From Halorussus sp. MSC15.2 (GTDB lineage Archaea; Halobacteriota; Halobacteria; Halobacteriales; Haladaptataceae): 64,000 nt of DNA. The notes under the pieces are model-generated. The model was not told where the DNA came from. It saw only the letters and a program-made list of their open reading frames with translations, and did not search any database. The stretch is from assembly GCF_010747475.1 (NCBI RefSeq), contig NZ_VSLZ01000005.1, positions 62,001 to 126,000 on the forward strand, written 5' to 3'. The position numbers and the translations under genes are program-made. The first letter of the stretch is position 1, and each line of letters starts with the position of its first letter. This document shows positions 16,856 to 25,670 of this stretch, piece by piece.

Positions 16856-17566
16856 TTATCCCCCGAGATAGAGCTGCGAGACTTCCTCGTTGTCGATGAG
16901 GTCGGCCGCGGCGTTCTCGAAGCGGACGGACCCTTGGTCGAGGACGTAGCCGCGGTCGGAGATGCCGAGTCCCTTCGTGGCGTTCTGCTCGACCATGAGA
17001 ATCGCGGTGTCCATCTCGTTGACCGCCTGCACGTGGCCGAACACGTCGTCGGCGGTGTTCGGCGCGAGTCCGGCCGACGGTTCGTCGATGAGGAGGACGT
17101 CCGGTTCCATCACGAGCGCCCGAGCGAACGCCAGCACCTGTCGCTGTCCGCCCGAGAGGGTGTTGGCCTTCGCCGACCGCTTCTGGTCGAGGATGTCGAA
17201 TCGGTCGTACAGGTCCGCGATGACCTCCGAGAGACCGTCTTCGCGGGCGACGCCGCCCATTCGGAGGTTCTCGTCGATGGTGAGCGTCCCGAACACGTTG
17301 TCGGTCTGGGGCACGTAGCCGATGCCCTCGCGGACGATGTCCTCGGGTGCCATTCCGCCGATTTCACGGCCGTGGTACTCCACGGTTCCCGCCCACGGCG
17401 TCAGCATGCCGAAGGCCGTCTTGAGGACCGTCGATTTCCCCGCGCCGTTCGGGCCGATGAGACAGACGATTTCGTCGGCGTCCAGATGCATCGAGCAGTC
17501 GTCGAGCACCTGCACCTCGCCGTAGCCGCTGTCCACGCCCGACAGTTCGAGGACGTGGTCGCTCAC
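16856..17566 (-). CDS. livF: Branched-chain amino acid-type ABC transporter ATPase LivF
   Basis: 236 residues. Walker A GPNGAGKSTVL, Q-loop VPQTDNVF, signature LSGGQRQ, Walker B VLLIDEPSAGL and H-loop region MVEQNA are all intact. The pattern of LivF (second ATPase, short C-terminus ending VSQLYLGG) is clear. Its ATG overlaps the livG stop (17566-17563). Last gene of a five-gene uptake operon livKHMGF. Substrate is set by LivK, which is frameshifted in this sequence. Confidence 0.93.
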   Translation of the reverse strand: MSDHVLELSGVDSGYGEVQVLDDCSMHLDADEIVCLIGPNGAGKSTVLKTAFGMLTPWAGTVEYHGREIGGMAPEDIVREGIGYVPQTDNVFGTLTIDENLRMGGVAREDGLSEVIADLYDRFDILDQKRSAKANTLSGGQRQVLAFARALVMEPDVLLIDEPSAGLAPNTADDVFGHVQAVNEMDTAILMVEQNATKGLGISDRGYVLDQGSVRFENAAADLIDNEEVSQLYLGG

Positions 17567-18390
17567 GCGCCACCTCCCAGATACGCCTCGACGACGCGGT
17601 CGTCGGACTGCACCTCGTCGGGGGTTCCCTCCATGAGAACGCTCCCGCGGTCTAACACCACTACCGGGTCGGCGAGATTCATGACGAACTCCATGTCGTG
17701 TTCGATGAGCAGGAACGTCGTCCCCTGCTCGTTGAGTCGGCGAACCTGCTCGGCGAGTTTGTTCCGGAGCGTCGGGTTGACGCCCGCGACCGGTTCGTCC
17801 AGCAGGAGGACCTCCGGTTCGGCCAGCATCGCGCGGGCCAGTTCGACCAGTTTCATCTGTCCGCCCGAGAGGTCCGTCGCCGGTTGCGTGGCGAGGTGGT
17901 CGATTTCGAACTCCTCCAAGATTCGCTGGGCGTCGGCGAGGTTGCGCGACTCGGTCTCGGCGACTTCGCCGGGCGAGGTGAACAGTTTCACGAACGACTC
18001 GCCGGGTTGCTTTCTCGGTCCCACCAGCATCGCCTCGCGGACCGTCATCCCCTCGAGTTTCCGGGGCGTCTGGAACGTCCGAATCAGTCCGTGGTCGGCG
18101 ACTTGGTACGGTTCCGCGCCGGTGACGTCGGTCCCGTTGACCTCGACGCGCCCAGCGTCGGGTTCGTAGAAGCCCGAGATGAGGTTGAAGAGCGTGGACT
18201 TGCCGGCACCGTTCGGACCGATGAGACCGGTGATGGTCCCGCGTTCGACCTCGAAGGTGGCGTGGTCGGTGGCGACCAGTCCGCCGAACGACTTCTGGAG
18301 GTCGTCCACGCGCAGGACGACGTTCTCCTTCGAGAGGTTCGCGCCCAGACGCGGGTCGTTCGGGGATTCGAGGTCACTCACCGTCGCCAC
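17563..18390 (-). CDS. livG: Branched-chain amino acid-type ABC transporter ATPase LivG
   Basis: 275 residues. Walker A GPNGAGKSTLFNLISGF, signature DLSGGQMKLVELARA, Walker B VLLLDEPVAGVNP, and the LivG-specific GLIRTFQTPRKLEGMTVREAMLVG. Overlaps both livM (17 bp) and livF (4 bp), so the operon is tightly coupled. Peripheral on the cytoplasmic side. Confidence 0.93.
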   Translation of the reverse strand: MATVSDLESPNDPRLGANLSKENVVLRVDDLQKSFGGLVATDHATFEVERGTITGLIGPNGAGKSTLFNLISGFYEPDAGRVEVNGTDVTGAEPYQVADHGLIRTFQTPRKLEGMTVREAMLVGPRKQPGESFVKLFTSPGEVAETESRNLADAQRILEEFEIDHLATQPATDLSGGQMKLVELARAMLAEPEVLLLDEPVAGVNPTLRNKLAEQVRRLNEQGTTFLLIEHDMEFVMNLADPVVVLDRGSVLMEGTPDEVQSDDRVVEAYLGGGA

Positions 18391-19549
18391 CTCCCTTGGC
18401 GTCGCGGACGCCGGAGTCGGGCCGGGACGGCGCGCCGTCGACGGCGTCGGGCCAGATGAGTTCGCGCTGGGGCGGCAGGATGCCCTCCGGACGGAACCGC
18501 ATCAGCGCGATGATGAGGACGCCGATGAGCAGCAGTCGGAGCGGAGCCACGTCGACGGGAATCCACGAGAACTCGTTGAGGAACCGGGTCCCCTCGCGGA
18601 TGGCGACGATGACGAACCCGCCGAACAGCGCGCCGCGGTTCGAACCGCTGCCGCCGAGGATGACCGCGACCCAGACGTAGAACGTCGTCACGGGGTCGAG
18701 GTCGCCGGGGCTGACGAACAGGTTCAGGTGGGCGTAGAAGACGCCCGCCAGCGCCATTATCAGACTGCCGAGGACGAACGACTGCATCTTGAACGAGTAG
18801 GTGTTCTTCCCCAGCGCCCGCGCGAGGTCCTCGTCGGACCGAATCGTCCGGAGGACGCGACCCCACGGCGAGCGGTGGGCGCGCTTGAGGACCGCGTAGG
18901 TGACGCTGACGAACGTCACGACGAGCGCGACGTTCAGCAGCGCGTTCCAGAACGGCGTTTCGAGGACGAGAGTGGTGCCGGGGAGCGCGACCTCCAGTCC
19001 GGGCATCGCGCTCGGGAACGTCTCCAGCAGCGGCCACCCCTCGAAGAAACTCGGGATGCCGCGGACTCCCGCGCTGCCGTTGGTCCACTGGCGTTCGTTG
19101 AGGACGACGAGTCGGACGACCTCGGCCAGTCCGAGCGACGCGATGGCGAGGTAGTCCGCGCGGAGACGGAGCGTCGGCACGCCGATGAGGACTGCGAGGA
19201 GGCCCGCGACCACGAGCGCGACCACGAGTCCGACGAGCGGGCTGTACCCCCCGGCGATGGGGGACGTACTCGCGCTCATGAGCGCGGTACCGTACGCGCC
19301 GATACCGAAGAACGCCGCGACGCTGAAGTTAATCAGTCCGGAGAACCCCCACTGGGAGTTCAGTCCGAACGACAGCAGCGAGTACATCCCCGCGAGACCG
19401 ACGAGATACAGGAAGTACGTCGGCGCGAGTCCGCCCGAGAGCAGGCCGAACAGCAGCAGCGCTGCGAACCCGACGATGAAGGCGAGGACGCCCTGTTCGG
19501 GTCGCGTGAGGTCCGCCCAGTACTCGGTCGGGTCGGTGAGTGCGTTCAT
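18374..19549 (-). CDS. livM: ABC transporter permease LivM
   Basis: 391 residues with about ten hydrophobic segments. Family features: GLAGMYSLLSFGLNSQWGFSGLINFSVAAFFGIGAYG, GVPTLRLRADYLAIASLGLAEVVRL, and GRVLRTIRSDEDLARALGKNTYSFK, the EAA-like coupling loop that contacts the ATPases. Hydrophilic C-terminal tail after the last helix (about 25 residues). Pairs with LivH one base away. Confidence 0.93.
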   Translation of the reverse strand: MNALTDPTEYWADLTRPEQGVLAFIVGFAALLLFGLLSGGLAPTYFLYLVGLAGMYSLLSFGLNSQWGFSGLINFSVAAFFGIGAYGTALMSASTSPIAGGYSPLVGLVVALVVAGLLAVLIGVPTLRLRADYLAIASLGLAEVVRLVVLNERQWTNGSAGVRGIPSFFEGWPLLETFPSAMPGLEVALPGTTLVLETPFWNALLNVALVVTFVSVTYAVLKRAHRSPWGRVLRTIRSDEDLARALGKNTYSFKMQSFVLGSLIMALAGVFYAHLNLFVSPGDLDPVTTFYVWVAVILGGSGSNRGALFGGFVIVAIREGTRFLNEFSWIPVDVAPLRLLLIGVLIIALMRFRPEGILPPQRELIWPDAVDGAPSRPDSGVRDAKGGGDGE

Positions 19550-19550
19550 C

Positions 19551-20447
19551 TCAGGTCGCCTCCTGTGCGATTCCGTTGGGACGGACGAGCAGCACGGCCA
19601 CCATGATGACGAACGCGATGGCGTTGGCGTACTCGATGCCGACGGGAAGCACCGGCGTCAACTGGTTTATCATGCCGATGAGGAGTCCGCCGAGCATCGC
19701 CCCGTAGACGGAGCCGATACCGCCGAGGATGACGGCCGCGAAGATGAGCAGCAGCAGGTCGAACCCCATCCGCGGCGCGAGCTGGTTGTAGAGACCGAGG
19801 AACACGCCGCCTGCACCGGCCAGTCCGGCCCCGATAATCCACGTCCATAGTTTGATGCGGTCGGTGCGGATGCCGCTCACGCGGGCGAGGTCGGGATTGT
19901 CCGCCATCGCGCGCATCTTCCGACCGAGGTCGCTGTGCTGGAGCAGGACGTGAAGCCCGCTCACCAACACGAGCGCCGAGACGGCGATTGCCACGTCGTG
20001 TTGGGTGACGCGGACTCCGTAGGGGACGAGCCACTCGATGGGCCGGAGCGATTGGATGTCGTATCGAGTGAAGTCCGCGCCGAACCCCATCTGAATCACC
20101 GCGCGGTAGACGAAGGCGACGCCGATGGACGTTATCAGCAGTCCGATGGAACCGACGTCGAGCGGTTCGTAGACGACCTTCTCGGTGACGACGGCGACGA
20201 CCGCCGCCACGGCGATACCGACCAGCAGCGCGACGAAGAAGCCCAGCGGAAGTCCCAGCACTGCTCCGCCCAGACCGCCGACGGCCCCGAACGTGACCAG
20301 CGCCGTGTACGCCCCGATAGTCATCGTGTCGCCGTGGGCGAAGTTCGCGAAGTCGGCGATGCTGTAGACGAGCGACAGCCCGATACTCCCGAGGATGATG
20401 ATGCTGCTGAATATCAGCCCGTTGACGAAGTGTTCTAGAAGGGCCAT
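19551..20447 (-). CDS. livH: ABC transporter permease LivH
   Basis: 298 residues, about eight membrane segments. Typical LivH blocks: GLSLVYSIADFANFAHGDTMTIGAYTAL at the N-terminus, GRKMRAMADNPDLARVSGIRTD as the coupling helix, and VILGGIGSVYGAMLGGLLIGM near the C-terminus. Six bases separate it from the livK 3' end. Transports amino acids or amides as part of LivKHMGF. Confidence 0.93.
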   Translation of the reverse strand: MALLEHFVNGLIFSSIIILGSIGLSLVYSIADFANFAHGDTMTIGAYTALVTFGAVGGLGGAVLGLPLGFFVALLVGIAVAAVVAVVTEKVVYEPLDVGSIGLLITSIGVAFVYRAVIQMGFGADFTRYDIQSLRPIEWLVPYGVRVTQHDVAIAVSALVLVSGLHVLLQHSDLGRKMRAMADNPDLARVSGIRTDRIKLWTWIIGAGLAGAGGVFLGLYNQLAPRMGFDLLLLIFAAVILGGIGSVYGAMLGGLLIGMINQLTPVLPVGIEYANAIAFVIMVAVLLVRPNGIAQEAT

Positions 20448-20453
20448 TGGGGC

Positions 20454-21745
20454 TTACGACTCGATGAAGCCGGTTCCGACGTAGTCGTGGTTCTCGACGG
20501 TGAGAATCTGGAGGTAGCCCACGGGGTCGCCGTTCTCGTCGAAGTCGATGGGGCCGCTGACGCCCTGATAGTCCACGTCGTCCACGCCGCCGCCGTCGGC
20601 GAGAATCTTGCTCGCGGCCTCGAAAGAAGTCACCTTCTCGCCCTCCGGTCGAGTCACCTCGCGGACGGTCTTCTGGAGCGCCTTGCCGGTGAACTCGTCG
20701 GCGGCCTGTATCGACAGCGCCGCCGTGACGACGCAGTCGTAGGCGTAGGCCGACCACGCGGTCGGTTCCTCGCCGTACTCCTCTTTGAACGCGCTGGCGA
20801 ACTCCTTGTAGTTGTCTTGGTCCACGGGGGCCGACGGCACCACGATTTTCATGCCGTCCATGCTCCCTTCCGGGGTGTTCTTGAGGACGTTGTCGCCCGA
20901 GACGGAGTCGGCACCGTAGAACTGCGCCTCGTAGCCGCTGGAGTAGGCCTCGTTCACCATCGTGGCGAACTCCGCCTGATAGGTGATGAACAGCCACGCG
21001 TCGGCACCGGAACTGTTCATCTCCGAGACGACGCCCGAGTAGGACTGCTGCTTCTGGTCGTGAGGGTTCTTGTAGGCTATCTCGCCGTCGTAGGACTGCT
21101 CGAACGCGTCGGCGAGGCTCTGGCCGTAGTCGTTGTTGACGTAGGTGACGGCGACTTCGTCGTAGCCGTCGTCCGCGATGATGTTCGAAAGCGCAGTCGA
21201 TTGGGTGCGACCGGTCGGCGACATCCGGAGCAGACCGGGGAAGTCGGTGAGGCTCAGTCCAGTGGAGTTCTGCTCAGTTGAACGACGTCGGTGCCCTGAA
21301 CGACGCTCTCGTAGATGGCCAGCGAGACGCCGGAGCCGACGGACCCGATGAGGAAGGGGACCTGATTCTGGTTCACCAGCTTCTGGGCGGCCGAGACGCC
21401 GCCCTGACTCTCGGACTCGGAGTCCTCGACGATTATCTTGAGGTCACGCCCGTTGATTCCGACCTCGTTCACCCGCTTCAGCGCGAGGTCCTTCCCGCGC
21501 TGGTTGCGCTCGCCGAACGCCGACAGCGAACCGGTGAGCGAGTCCACCATCCCGATGGCGTAGGGACCGCCGTCGCTCCCGCTTTCGGTCTCGGTTTCGG
21601 TCGTCCCCTCGGTTTCGGTCTCCGTCGTCTCCTCGGACCCGTCGTCCGTCGAACTCACGCAACCGGCCAACGCGGTGACGCCCGCCCCACCCGCCGCCTT
21701 CAACAGCGTTCTCCGGTCGATGATATCCACGATGTTTCGTGACAT
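20454..21745 (-). pseudogene. livK: Periplasmic-type substrate-binding lipoprotein LivK, broken by one missing base
   Basis: First gene of the liv operon. From ATG 21745 the protein has a Tat signal with lipobox (DRRTLLKAAGG ... ALAGC), a Thr/Glu-rich linker and the first half of a type I substrate-binding fold (YAIGMVDSLTGSLSAFG ... LIGSVGSGVSLAIYESVVQ). At 21270-21271 the frame breaks: it reads VVQLSRTPLD-stop, while one extra base gives VVQLSQNSTGLSLTDFPGLLRMSPTGRTQ and continues to 20454. The repaired protein is 430 residues. A start at 21769 is also open, but 21745 puts the signal at the N-terminus. Cargo unknown; the adjacent proline catabolism genes share an operator-like site with it. 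Confidence 0.82.
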
Positions 21746-21785: not shown

Positions 21786-21805
21786 ACCCTACCATGGTCG
21801 GGTGC
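21786..21805. promoter_or_regulatory. Operator-like sequence, copy 1 (livK/proline dehydrogenase divergent region)
   Basis: ACCCTACCATGGTCGGGTGC differs at one base from a 20-base part of the perfect palindrome at 23566-23587. It sits 41-60 bases before the livK ATG and 90-110 before the proline dehydrogenase start, so it could control both directions. Confidence 0.6.
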
Positions 21806-21864
21806 CTCGGTAGAGCAACTGAGAGCCGCGAAAACGCTGTTGTCGTGTATTCAGAGGGCTGCCA

Positions 21865-21871
21865 CTTATAC
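21865..21871 (+). promoter_or_regulatory. TATA box for proline dehydrogenase
   Basis: CTTATAC is centred 27 nt upstream of ATG 21895, the leaderless spacing seen at other genes in this window. This supports transcription starting at about 21895. Confidence 0.55.
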
Positions 21872-21894
21872 TCACCGGCCGTTCGGCGTAACTT

Positions 21895-21904
21895 ATGGTC
21901 GGGT
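21895..21904. promoter_or_regulatory. Operator-like half site at the proline dehydrogenase transcription start
   Basis: ATGGTCGGGT matches the right half of the shared palindrome. It coincides with the predicted transcription start, where a bound protein would block initiation. Short, so chance cannot be excluded. Confidence 0.35.
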
Positions 21905-22767
21905 CGCCGTATAGGTGGGTCGCGTCTCTAGTGTGCGTCGTGATACCACCGATTGCCAACGACTTCGTCGCGGGCGAGACGCCCGAGGCGGCGCTGACCC
22001 ACGTGGACGGCGTGAACGACCGGGGCGTGTCGGCCATCCTGAACCTGCTCGGGGAACACTACGAGGACCGTTCGCCCGCGGACGCCGACGCCGACGCGTA
22101 CGTCGAACTCGCGGCGGCCATCGCCGACCGGGGGTCCGACGCCTGCATCTCCGTCAAGCCCAGCCAAATCGGACTCGGCGTCGGCGACGCCGTCTTCCGG
22201 GAGAACCTCGCGCGAATCGTGGACGCCGCCGACTGCTTCGTCTGGATAGACATGGAGGACCACGAGACGACGGACGTGACGCTGGACGCTTTCGAGCGAC
22301 ACGCCCGCGAGACGGACGGCCGGGTCGGCGTCTGCGTGCAGGCGAATCTGAAGCGGACCCGCGACGACCTCGAACGACTCGCCGACGTGCCGGGCAAGGT
22401 TCGCCTCGTCAAAGGCGCGTACGACGAGTCGGCGGAAATCGCCTACAAGAAGAAAGCGCGGGTGGACGAGGCGTACCGAGAACTCCTCTCGTTCATGTTC
22501 CGCGAGTTCGACGACGGCGTCGCCGTCGGCAGTCACGACCCCGCGATGATAGAACTCGCGCGAGAACTCCACGACGAACACGGGACGCCCTACGAGGTGC
22601 AGATGCTGATGGGTGTCCGCGAGCGAGCGCAGTTCGACCTCGCCGAGGACGTCGCGGTCTACCAGTACGTCCCCTACGGGAGCAAGTGGTTCTCCTACTT
22701 CTACCGCCGCATCCGGGAGCGGAAATCGAACGCGCTGTTCGCGCTACGGGCCATCGTCGGGCGTTGA
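21895..22767 (+). CDS. Proline dehydrogenase
   Basis: FAD-dependent oxidation of proline to pyrroline-5-carboxylate, first step of proline catabolism. The TIM-barrel core is visible: ISVKPSQIG, WIDMEDHETTDVT, VCVQANLKRTRDDL, VRLVKGAYDES and the C-terminal YVPYGSKWFSYFYRRIRERKSN, which holds the substrate-binding Arg pair. 290 residues from ATG 21895, which sits at the predicted transcription start. The family usually begins at IPPIANDFVAGETPE, so the GTG at 21940 (275 residues) is a credible alternative with a 45-nt leader. The next pathway enzyme lies 0.9 kb downstream with a regulator gene between. Confidence 0.9.
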   Translation: MVGSPYRWVASLVCVVIPPIANDFVAGETPEAALTHVDGVNDRGVSAILNLLGEHYEDRSPADADADAYVELAAAIADRGSDACISVKPSQIGLGVGDAVFRENLARIVDAADCFVWIDMEDHETTDVTLDAFERHARETDGRVGVCVQANLKRTRDDLERLADVPGKVRLVKGAYDESAEIAYKKKARVDEAYRELLSFMFREFDDGVAVGSHDPAMIELARELHDEHGTPYEVQMLMGVRERAQFDLAEDVAVYQYVPYGSKWFSYFYRRIRERKSNALFALRAIVGR

Positions 22768-22796
22768 GTCGCAGACCGCGGGTTGGTCACGGGCGA

Positions 22797-23516
22797 CTAC
22801 GGGTCGAGAAGTTTCGACTCGGCCTTCCGGAGGTGTTCGAGCAGCGTCGTCTTCGAGACGTCGAGGTCGTCGGCGAGTTCGCGGGTCGAGGTCCCGCGGG
22901 GCCACTCGTAGTACCCCGTCTCCCGGGCGTGTTCGAAGACCTTCCGCTGGGTGGTCGTGAGCGTGTCGAGTCGCTGGTCGCGCGGGGACCGGCCGTTGGC
23001 GTCGGCCGCCGTGATGGAGTCGATGCTCACTTCGGCACCCGACTGCTCGCGGACGTTCTGTAGCGCGTCCTCGATTCCAGACCGTTCGCCCGCGAACCCG
23101 ACGTGCCACTCCTCCTTGCCGTTCTCGATTCGGACCGGCGCGCTGTGGACGAACCCGTTTTCGAGTAACGTGGGACAGACCATGTCGTCGGGGTCGTACT
23201 CCAAGAAGAACTCCCGGACCACGTTGCCCGGCGCGTTGCGCGCGCGGCCGAACCGCTCCTGTAGTTCGAGCAGTTCGCCGGCGCGGTCGGACGCGCGGAT
23301 GGCGTCGAAGAGGCGTTCGACCTCCGCCTCCGTCTCGCCGAAGGCCGTGAAGAGACCGTTGACCGACGACGGTCGGTCCCCGGTCGTCGGCGAGTTGTAA
23401 ATCGCGTGCGCCAACACGCCGCCGGCGGTCCGTTCGGTCGCCTCGATGGCCCAGCAGTTCGGATGCCACAGGTCGAGCGTCAGTCTCGTTCCCGGTATCT
23501 GTTCCGCGATAGTCAT
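22797..23516 (-). CDS. Bat-type HTH regulator, probable controller of proline catabolism
   Basis: 239 residues from ATG 23516. The last 55 residues form the HTH-10 domain of bacterio-opsin-activator-like regulators (LTTTQRKVFEHARETGYYEWPRGTSTRELADDLDVSKTTLLEHLRKAESKLL). The N-terminal 170 residues, with LTLDLWHPNCWAIEATERTAGGVLAHAIYNSP, form the usual sensor-like region of this class. It sits between proline dehydrogenase and P5C dehydrogenase and is transcribed away from the latter, which makes it the best candidate to bind the palindromes at 21786 and 23566 (inference). A start at 23534 is open but would read through an inverted repeat. Confidence 0.82.
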   Translation of the reverse strand: MTIAEQIPGTRLTLDLWHPNCWAIEATERTAGGVLAHAIYNSPTTGDRPSSVNGLFTAFGETEAEVERLFDAIRASDRAGELLELQERFGRARNAPGNVVREFFLEYDPDDMVCPTLLENGFVHSAPVRIENGKEEWHVGFAGERSGIEDALQNVREQSGAEVSIDSITAADANGRSPRDQRLDTLTTTQRKVFEHARETGYYEWPRGTSTRELADDLDVSKTTLLEHLRKAESKLLDP

Positions 23517-23531
23517 CCCTGATATAGGCCT

Positions 23532-23547
23532 CACGCACTATTGCGTG
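23532..23547. promoter_or_regulatory. Inverted repeat upstream of the bat-type regulator
   Basis: CACGCA, four bases (CTAT), TGCGTG: a perfect 6-bp inverted repeat, 16-31 bases upstream of the regulator ATG. The spacer holds the TATA-like CAATAG (minus strand) at about -25, so occupation would block the regulator's own promoter. Unlike the palindrome at 23566, hence possibly a different site. Confidence 0.4.
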
Positions 23548-23565
23548 TGTCGGTTCAACGAGGAT

Positions 23566-23587
23566 GCACCCGACCATGGTCGGGTGC
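23566..23587. promoter_or_regulatory. 22-bp perfect palindrome, operator-like copy 2
   Basis: GCACCCGACCA followed directly by its exact reverse complement. It lies between the divergent regulator and P5C dehydrogenase genes, 50-71 bases upstream of the regulator ATG. Twenty of its bases recur with a single mismatch at 21786-21805. Confidence 0.65.
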
Positions 23588-23640
23588 GCGTCGGGCGGGC
23601 TATCGACCCCACTCGCGACGCGACGGACCCGGACGCCGCG

Positions 23641-23659
23641 CCCGCCCATGGTCGGCGGG
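23641..23659. promoter_or_regulatory. Imperfect palindrome related to the operator, upstream of P5C dehydrogenase
   Basis: CCCGCCCATGGTCGGCGGG shares the CCATGGTCGG core with the other copies and has matching CCCGCC/GGCGGG arms. It is 43-61 bases upstream of the P5C dehydrogenase ATG. Weaker than the other copies. Confidence 0.35.
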
Positions 23660-23701: not shown

Positions 23702-25221
23702 ATGGCAGAGACACACCGACACTACATCGACGGCGAATGGGTCACCGGCGAGAGTTCCGACACGTTCACGAGTCAGAACCCCGCGACCGGCGAGGCGCTC
23801 GGCGAGTTCTATCACGGGACGCCGGCGGACGTAGAACGCGCTGTCGAGGCCGCCGACGAGGCGTTCGAGGAGTGGCGCGAACTCTCCCGCATCGACCGCG
23901 CGGAGTACCTCTGGGACGTGTATCACGCGCTCAAGGAGCGGACGGACGAACTCGGCAGAATCGTGAGCCAAGAGTGCGGCAAGGAGATTTCGGAGGGGCG
24001 CGCGACGTGGTCGAGGCCGCCCACATGGTCGAGTGGGCCGCGGGCGACGCCCGCCACCCCAAGGGCGACATCGTCCCGTCGGAAATCGCCGCGAAGGACG
24101 CCTACATGCGCCGGAAGCCCCGCGGCGTCACGGGATGTATCACGCCGTGGAACTTCCCGGTCGCCATCCCTTACTGGCACATGGCGGTCGCGCTGGTCGA
24201 GGGCAACACCGTCGTGTTCAAACCCGCCGAGCAGACGCCCGAGTGCGCCCACGTCGTCGCGGAACTGTTCGCCGAGGCGGGACTCCCGGACGGCGTGTTC
24301 AACATGGTACAGGGCTTCGGCGACGTCGGCAACGCCATCGTCGAGTCCGACGACGTGGACACGGTGCTGTTCACCGGGTCGGCCGAGGTCGGCCACAGCA
24401 TCGCGGAGTCGGTCGCGGCCGACCCCGGCAAGCGCGTGGCCTGCGAGATGGGCGGGAAGAACGCCGTCGTCGTCACCGACGAGGCGGACCTCGACGTGGC
24501 CGTCCACAGCGCGGTGATGTCCTCGTTCAAGACGACGGGCCAGCGCTGCGTCTCCAGCGAGCGCCTCATCGTCCACGAGGACGTGTACGACGAGTTCAAG
24601 GAACGCTTCGTCGAAGCGGCGTCGCGAGTCGCGGTCGGCGACCCGCTGGACGAGGACACCTTCATGGGGCCGCTAGTCGAGGCCGCCCACCGCCAGAAAG
24701 TGGCGAACTACAACGAACTCGCCCGCGAGGAGGGCGTGAACGTCCTCGTCGATAGGACCGACCTCGACGCCGACGAGATTCCCGACGGCCACGAGGACGG
24801 CCACTGGGTCGGCCCGTTCGTCTACGAGGCGGACCCCGACGCCGACCTGCGGTGTACCCACGAGGAGGTGTTCGGCCCGCACGTCGCGCTCCTCGAATAC
24901 GAGGGCGGTATCGAACGCGCCGTCGAAATCCAGAACGACACGGAGTACGGACTGGCGGGCGCGGTCATCTCGGAGAACTACCGCCAGATACACTACTACC
25001 GCGACCACGCCGAAGTCGGTCTCGCGTACGGCAACCTGCCGTGCATCGGCGCGGAGGTCCAACTGCCGTTCGGCGGCGTCAAGAAGTCCGGCAACGGCTA
25101 CCCCAGCGCCCGCGAGGTCATCGAGGCCGTCACCGACCGGACCGCGTGGACGCTGAACAACAGCAAGGACATCCAGATGGCGCAGGGTCTCTCGGCGGAG
25201 GTCACGACCGATGACGAGTGA
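23702..25221 (+). pseudogene. Pyrroline-5-carboxylate dehydrogenase (aldehyde dehydrogenase family), broken by one missing base
   Basis: NAD-dependent oxidation of glutamate semialdehyde to glutamate, second step of proline catabolism. From ATG 23702 the frame gives HYIDGEWVTGESSDTF ... CGKEISEGRA, then breaks at about 24004. With one added base it continues DVVEAAHMVEWAAGDARHPKG into the rest: GVTGCITPWNFPVAIP, FTGSAEVGHSIAE, catalytic Glu in CEMGGKNAVVV and nucleophilic Cys in FKTTGQRCVSSERL. Repaired length 506 residues. The two halves are in adjacent frames and overlap, so the long open frame from 23446 is not the real 5' end. Likely a sequence error in GCGCGCG. Confidence 0.85.
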
Positions 25222-25597: not shown

Positions 25598-25670
25598 TGG
25601 GACCGCCCGGATTCGAACCGGGGTTATCGGCACCCAAGGCCGAAAGGATACCAAGCTACCCCACGGTCCC
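25598..25670 (-). tRNA. tRNA-Pro (anticodon TGG)
   Basis: 73 nt on the minus strand from GGGACCG at 25670. Acceptor GGGACCG/CGGTCCC, D arm GGGTAGCTTGGTATCC, anticodon stem TCGGC/GCCGA closing loop CTTGGGT with anticodon TGG, and T arm CCCGG-TTCGAAT-CCGGG. Discriminator A; CCA is not encoded. No intron. Reads CCN proline codons. Confidence 0.95.

Follow-up and report, generated by a model that had tools for sequence, protein, structure and literature searches.

A palindromic site shared by proline catabolism genes, a Liv-type transporter operon and an HTH_10 regulator gene points to a dedicated local regulon in haloarchaea

An HTH_10 protein encoded in Halorussus sp. MSC15.2 most probably binds a recurrent palindromic site and controls four promoters of one local, autoregulated regulon, presumably in the manner of an activator. 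Its targets would be the regulator's own gene, the genes for P5C dehydrogenase and proline dehydrogenase, and the livKHMGF operon. Judging from sequence comparison, the switch, the regulator and the spacing are kept across ~20 genera and very probably make up a real, dedicated regulon; the parts that we infer are binding by the HTH_10 protein, activation over repression, the ligand, and what the transporter carries.

The cluster lies within a 64,000-nucleotide stretch of genomic DNA (the window), in which livKHMGF on the minus strand is followed by proline dehydrogenase (plus), the HTH_10 regulator (minus) and an aldehyde dehydrogenase (plus) (Table 1). We take the latter as P5C dehydrogenase, from its context and from the assignment of HVO_1189 in Haloferax volcanii (PMC6801745); it did not reach any equivalog cut-off. 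Both members of the put-locus pair, proline dehydrogenase (PF01619) and P5C dehydrogenase (PF00171), are thus represented. The transporter genes have the make-up of a Liv-type (HAAT) importer, with a PF13458 binding protein, two PF02653 permeases and two ABC ATPases in a single operon, and the liv proteins likewise stayed below the cut-offs of the NCBIfam equivalogs. Relative to H. aquaticus, the closest genome and our reference for reading frames, livK (near 21272) and P5C dehydrogenase (near 24003) are one base short each and their frames are broken; the livK orthologue in H. aquaticus is intact (432 aa). Because the remainder of the cluster shares 94-98% protein identity with that species, we read the two breaks as sequencing errors or very recent lesions. 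The proline catabolic genes are followed, after ~380 bp, by a tRNA-Pro gene (anticodon TGG; 25598-25670, minus strand), probably by coincidence.

Table 1 Genes and candidate regulatory sites of the proline/liv cluster (positions in the window)
Feature	Position	Strand	Profile or sequence	Remark
livF-type ATPase	16856-17566	-	profile match	
livG-type ATPase	17563-18390	-	profile match	
livM-type permease	18374-19549	-	profile match	
livH-type permease	19551-20447	-	profile match	
livK-type substrate-binding protein	20454-21745	-	PF13458	frame shifted near 21272
Operator 3 (candidate)	21786-21805		ACCCTACCATGGTCGGGTGC, then GGGTTAACCC	dyad 49 bp before livK ATG (21745, minus strand)
Operator 4 (candidate half-site)	21895-21904	+	ATGGTCGGGT	dyad position -44 from GTG 21940
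TATA-like box	21910-21915	+	TATAGG	~28 bp before GTG 21940
Proline dehydrogenase	21940-22767	+	PF01619	start corrected by alignment
HTH_10 regulator, 239 aa	22797-23516	-	PF04967	N-terminal region predicted tandem alpha/beta
Operator 1 (candidate)	23566-23587		22-bp palindrome GCACCCGACCATGGTCGGGTGC; 14-bp core 23570-23583	dyad 60 bp 5' of regulator start
Operator 2 (candidate)	23642-23655		weaker palindrome CCGCCCATGGTCGG	dyad 53 bp before P5C dehydrogenase ATG; third in-cluster core match
Aldehyde dehydrogenase family, taken as P5C dehydrogenase	23702-25221	+	PF00171	frame shifted near 24003

The gap between the regulator and P5C dehydrogenase genes contains the perfect 22-bp palindrome GCACCCGACCATGGTCGGGTGC (23566-23587), exactly as a preliminary description of the window had reported. 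The 20-bp copy that it had placed at 21786-21805 also held up in coordinates and mismatch, departing from ACCCGACCATGGTCGGGTGC at one position, and the weaker palindrome that it had mentioned upstream of P5C dehydrogenase corresponds to CCGCCCATGGTCGG at 23642-23655. The last of these is followed by AGTTTGG, where other genera have TATTTGG. The preliminary description had said nothing of the two frame breaks. One hundred dinucleotide shuffles of the window yielded no palindrome match. Throughout the 4.4-Mb genome, the 18-mer ACCCGACCATGGTCGGGT at no more than one mismatch returned the copies at 21786-21805 and 23566-23587 only, and at the same tolerance three of the four genomic matches to the 14-bp core CCGACCATGGTCGG fell into the cluster (21788-21801, 23570-23583, 23642-23655). 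The remaining matches, on C6 and C4, lie within reading frames, and we rejected a wider regulon in the Halorussus genome.

The regulator matched the C-terminal HTH_10 family PF04967 with an E value of 4.7e-20 (71.6 bits; cut-off 23.1), as did all 14 of its orthologues, among whose domain matches there was neither a PAS nor a GAF family. Bat carries PAS and GAF sensor domains, and the NarO/DmsR group combines HTH_10 with neither (PMC11218638); since the present protein has HTH_10 without PAS/GAF, it is not Bat itself and its make-up is closer to NarO/DmsR. Its predicted structure (pLDDT 78) shows tandem alpha/beta units in the N-terminal part. A comparison of the sequence with solved structures gave no significant match and, because the best fold match of the model in the PDB was weak (5m86, Ta1207; TM 0.41), we claim no ligand class. 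With the regulator as query, haloarchaeal genomes return 16-94 HTH_10-like matches each, one incomplete genome excepted. A second copy, sharing 68% identity, occurs in Halorussus salinisoli (L048:7150-7866) away from any proline genes; ACCATGGTCGTC lies 5' of that copy's own start.

The exact 14-mer was present in 27 of 293 Halobacteriales genomes, as compared to two for the reversed control. About 21 of the 27 loci fetched adjoin proline dehydrogenase, P5C dehydrogenase, livK or the regulator (at 60-98% identity). Five further matches (L057, L060, L072, L076, L077) fall within reading frames and were rejected as regulon sites; another exact 14-mer (L075:1501-1514) precedes a small gene unrelated to proline, with no proline or liv genes nearby. 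From named genomes, we took 80 proline dehydrogenase loci; the count covers 81, of which 54 have the regulator and 27 do not. The palindrome, in the form CCNNCCATGGNNGG to which the pattern had been loosened from CCGACCATGGTCGG after viewing Haloferax, occurred in 53 of the loci with the regulator versus 3 of those without (Fisher p ~3e-16, relatedness not corrected for); the species are related, and counts of genomes or loci are not phylogenetically independent. Two of the three site-bearing loci that have no adjacent regulator belong to genomes encoding it elsewhere (77-78% identical), which points to action in trans. In the third, the assembly L096, whose contig ends just past proline dehydrogenase, no close regulator was found, which counts against the proposal. 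Where a genome has two proline dehydrogenase loci, as in Halosimplex salinum (L080/L140), Haloarchaeobius iranensis and Haloarchaeobius FL176 (L122/L127 and L133/L123 for the Haloarchaeobius pairs), sites are confined to the copy that has the regulator close by.

This co-occurrence bears on the idea that the palindrome is the operator of a different transcription factor and the HTH_10 gene merely a co-regulated neighbor. Haloarchaea do carry many HTH_10 and other regulators from which such a factor could be drawn; nevertheless, we consider this improbable, as the site tracks the HTH_10 gene, persists in two genomes that encode the gene in trans, and stays beside that gene where proline dehydrogenase lies elsewhere. 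The local regulon suggested in the preliminary description, in which the liv operon and proline catabolism share the palindrome, is supported: the site co-occurs with the HTH_10 regulator and the liv operon, and follows liv when the genes are separated. Among relatives with the same gene order, where absence of the site had been named as a refutation, it occurs almost without exception and keeps a near-fixed distance from the start codon.

Promoter geometry was assessed in 20 representatives, about one for each genus (Haloarcula twice), with start codons placed by homology and the palindrome sought within 150 bp of the start. Among these, 17 of 18 carry CCNNCCATGGNNGG ahead of livK, 16 of 19 ahead of the HTH_10 regulator gene and 16 of 17 ahead of P5C dehydrogenase, which makes 49 of 54 promoters versus 4 of 16,200 shuffled promoters. 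Between dyad and start, most P5C dehydrogenase promoters have 44 bp; the livK promoters fall mainly at 44-53 bp and those of the regulator mainly at 56-62 bp. Counting against the proposal, no site was found in Halohasta and Natrarchaeobius at the usual distance from the regulator gene, and in Salinigranum and Haloferax the regulator site is displaced. The Haloferax sites at the P5C dehydrogenase and regulator promoters have drifted to the CCTTCCATGGGAGG type, that of P5C dehydrogenase still lying at 46-50 bp. Such conservation, at near-fixed spacing over ~20 genera, refutes a reading of the palindromes as chance or RNA-level structures (a terminator or hairpin) with no operator function, to which we assign next to no probability. 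The genome is GC-rich and does contain many inverted repeats, but these palindromes have no spacer loop and lie upstream of the inferred transcription starts.

In the promoters examined, the dyad sits directly 5' of a TATA-like box, and over neither the box nor the start. Haloarchaeal activators usually bind upstream of the TATA-like box, as Bat does at the bop UAS, and the position of the site thus suggests activation. Mechanistically, a regulator dimer would bind CCNNCCATGGNNGG directly 5' of the BRE/TATA region; its N-terminal domain would sense proline or a product of proline, and the signal-bound regulator would help TBP and TFB assemble, by analogy with the role proposed for Bat at the bop UAS. 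The main alternative is that the regulator acts as a repressor, occupying the sites without substrate and being released by proline or P5C. Repressors just as typically control their own gene and a dedicated catabolic regulon, and in Halorubrum a single central site serves both divergent promoters (Halorussus has one per promoter). Yet the location of the sites 5' of the TATA-like box speaks against repression, which we regard as rather unlikely.

Proline dehydrogenase forms a special case. Aligned proline dehydrogenases begin with M(I/L)PPIA, which in the window corresponds to GTG 21940, and we rejected ATG 21895 as the start on account of this conserved N-terminus. Consequently, the half copy of the palindrome at 21895-21904, which the preliminary description had laid over the start site, is promoter DNA and ends ~36 bp upstream of GTG 21940. 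The gene has only the TATA-proximal half-site (consensus TTTGGTCGGGT, -46 to -36 from the start), its dyad position 44 bp before the start, and TGGT(A/C)GG(G/T) was found at -43 to -45 in 52 of the 54 regulator-bearing loci. Across the 20 genus representatives, columns -46 to -36 and -30 to -27 (TATA-like) of this promoter are conserved, and most others are not. The distance of ~28 bp between the TATA-like box and the start codon suggests a leaderless transcript. Given a half-site alone, albeit at the same register, proline dehydrogenase is probably a more weakly or cooperatively occupied target. In another Halorussus genome (G027; L049:3481-6839), a regulator only 45% identical accompanies P5C dehydrogenase and proline dehydrogenase in altered order; despite this divergence, the proline dehydrogenase promoter there retains half-site and TATA-like box, with TTTGGTAGGGT and then TATAGG.

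Expression data are available for the Haloferax volcanii cluster HVO_1189-HVO_1191, which encodes orthologous enzymes and between whose counterparts in close relatives the regulator is found (L138, L148, L152). HVO_1191 (proline dehydrogenase) and HVO_1189 (P5C dehydrogenase) were co-induced on alanine versus ammonium, by a signal that is not known (PMC6801745), and this joint rise agrees with co-regulation. The same study gives no site or regulator for the two genes, and its AT-rich, Lrp-linked motif differs from the palindrome (PMC6801745).

Gene arrangements in other genera support membership of the liv transporter in the putative regulon. Natronomonas has its liv operon apart from proline dehydrogenase, yet livK retains CCTACCATGGTCGG; in Halobacterium, Halogranum and Haloprofundus, the palindrome and then a liv operon come after the regulator gene, and proline dehydrogenase is not nearby; and at proline dehydrogenase loci without regulator and sites, the adjacent liv operon is missing too. 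That the transporter carries proline is our inference. There is a nearly even chance that the operon is under the same regulator but imports a different amino acid (a branched-chain one, glutamate, or amino acids in general), in which case the regulon would respond to nitrogen or amino acids and not to proline specifically. The Haloferax induction on alanine versus ammonium occurred with no proline added (PMC6801745), regulator, site and liv genes also occur at loci that lack proline dehydrogenase, and the liv proteins of Halobacterium have diverged strongly; against this, the liv operon adjoins proline dehydrogenase and P5C dehydrogenase in most genera. One such Halobacterium sp. locus (L171:4083-7360) has the regulator and the palindrome beside liv genes that have diverged (38% identity for livH) and no proline dehydrogenase; its liv operon may have a different substrate.

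A literature search returned no paper describing the present proline regulon, and related systems are known. The Bat/bop UAS regulon of Halobacterium salinarum resembles it in having an activator with a C-terminal HTH_10 domain and a conserved promoter-upstream site common to a few functionally linked genes, but Bat has the PAS/GAF domains that our regulator lacks, and the regulated pathway differs. The sequence of the bop UAS presumably also differs from the palindrome of the proline cluster. The preliminary description erred in knowing of no described site for this regulator type, as the bop UAS is known for Bat (PMC1447603) and a denitrification motif, CGAAYATDKTYG, in Haloferax. The denitrification (nos/nor) promoters of H. 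mediterranei carry CGAACATGTTCG, whose binding protein has not been identified (PMC10062603); this sequence shares its CATG-centered layout with CGACCATGGTCG and differs at one symmetric position. NarO/DmsR regulators, alike in having HTH_10 without PAS/GAF, control anaerobic respiration, whereas nearly all loci of the present regulator place it next to genes of proline catabolism and liv genes. Bacterial put regulons, with the PutA autorepressor or the Lrp-like PutR, are similar in the dedicated control of proline dehydrogenase and P5C dehydrogenase genes; their regulators come from unrelated families, and here the regulon would include an ABC-type liv importer and archaeal promoters.

To our knowledge, few of the dozens of HTH_10 regulators per haloarchaeal genome have a known target or DNA site. 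For one member of the family there is now a sharply defined candidate operator, together with a putative regulon that is small and complete and a near-fixed geometry of its promoters, and the conservation is wide enough for testing in Haloferax. The regulon would offer an answer to the question, raised by the Haloferax data, of how proline dehydrogenase and P5C dehydrogenase come to be induced together (PMC6801745), and it would give a so far unassigned Liv-type transporter a likely role. It would also add a member to the Bat/NarO-type regulators, for which sites have been described before. Tentatively, HTH_10 regulators may read a common CATG-centered code (CGA-C-CATG-G-TCG here; CGA-A-CATG-T-TCG in denitrification) in which the flanking base sets the regulon, and the present member may be an activator responding to proline that, in many haloarchaea, links proline import by a Liv-type transporter to proline oxidation.
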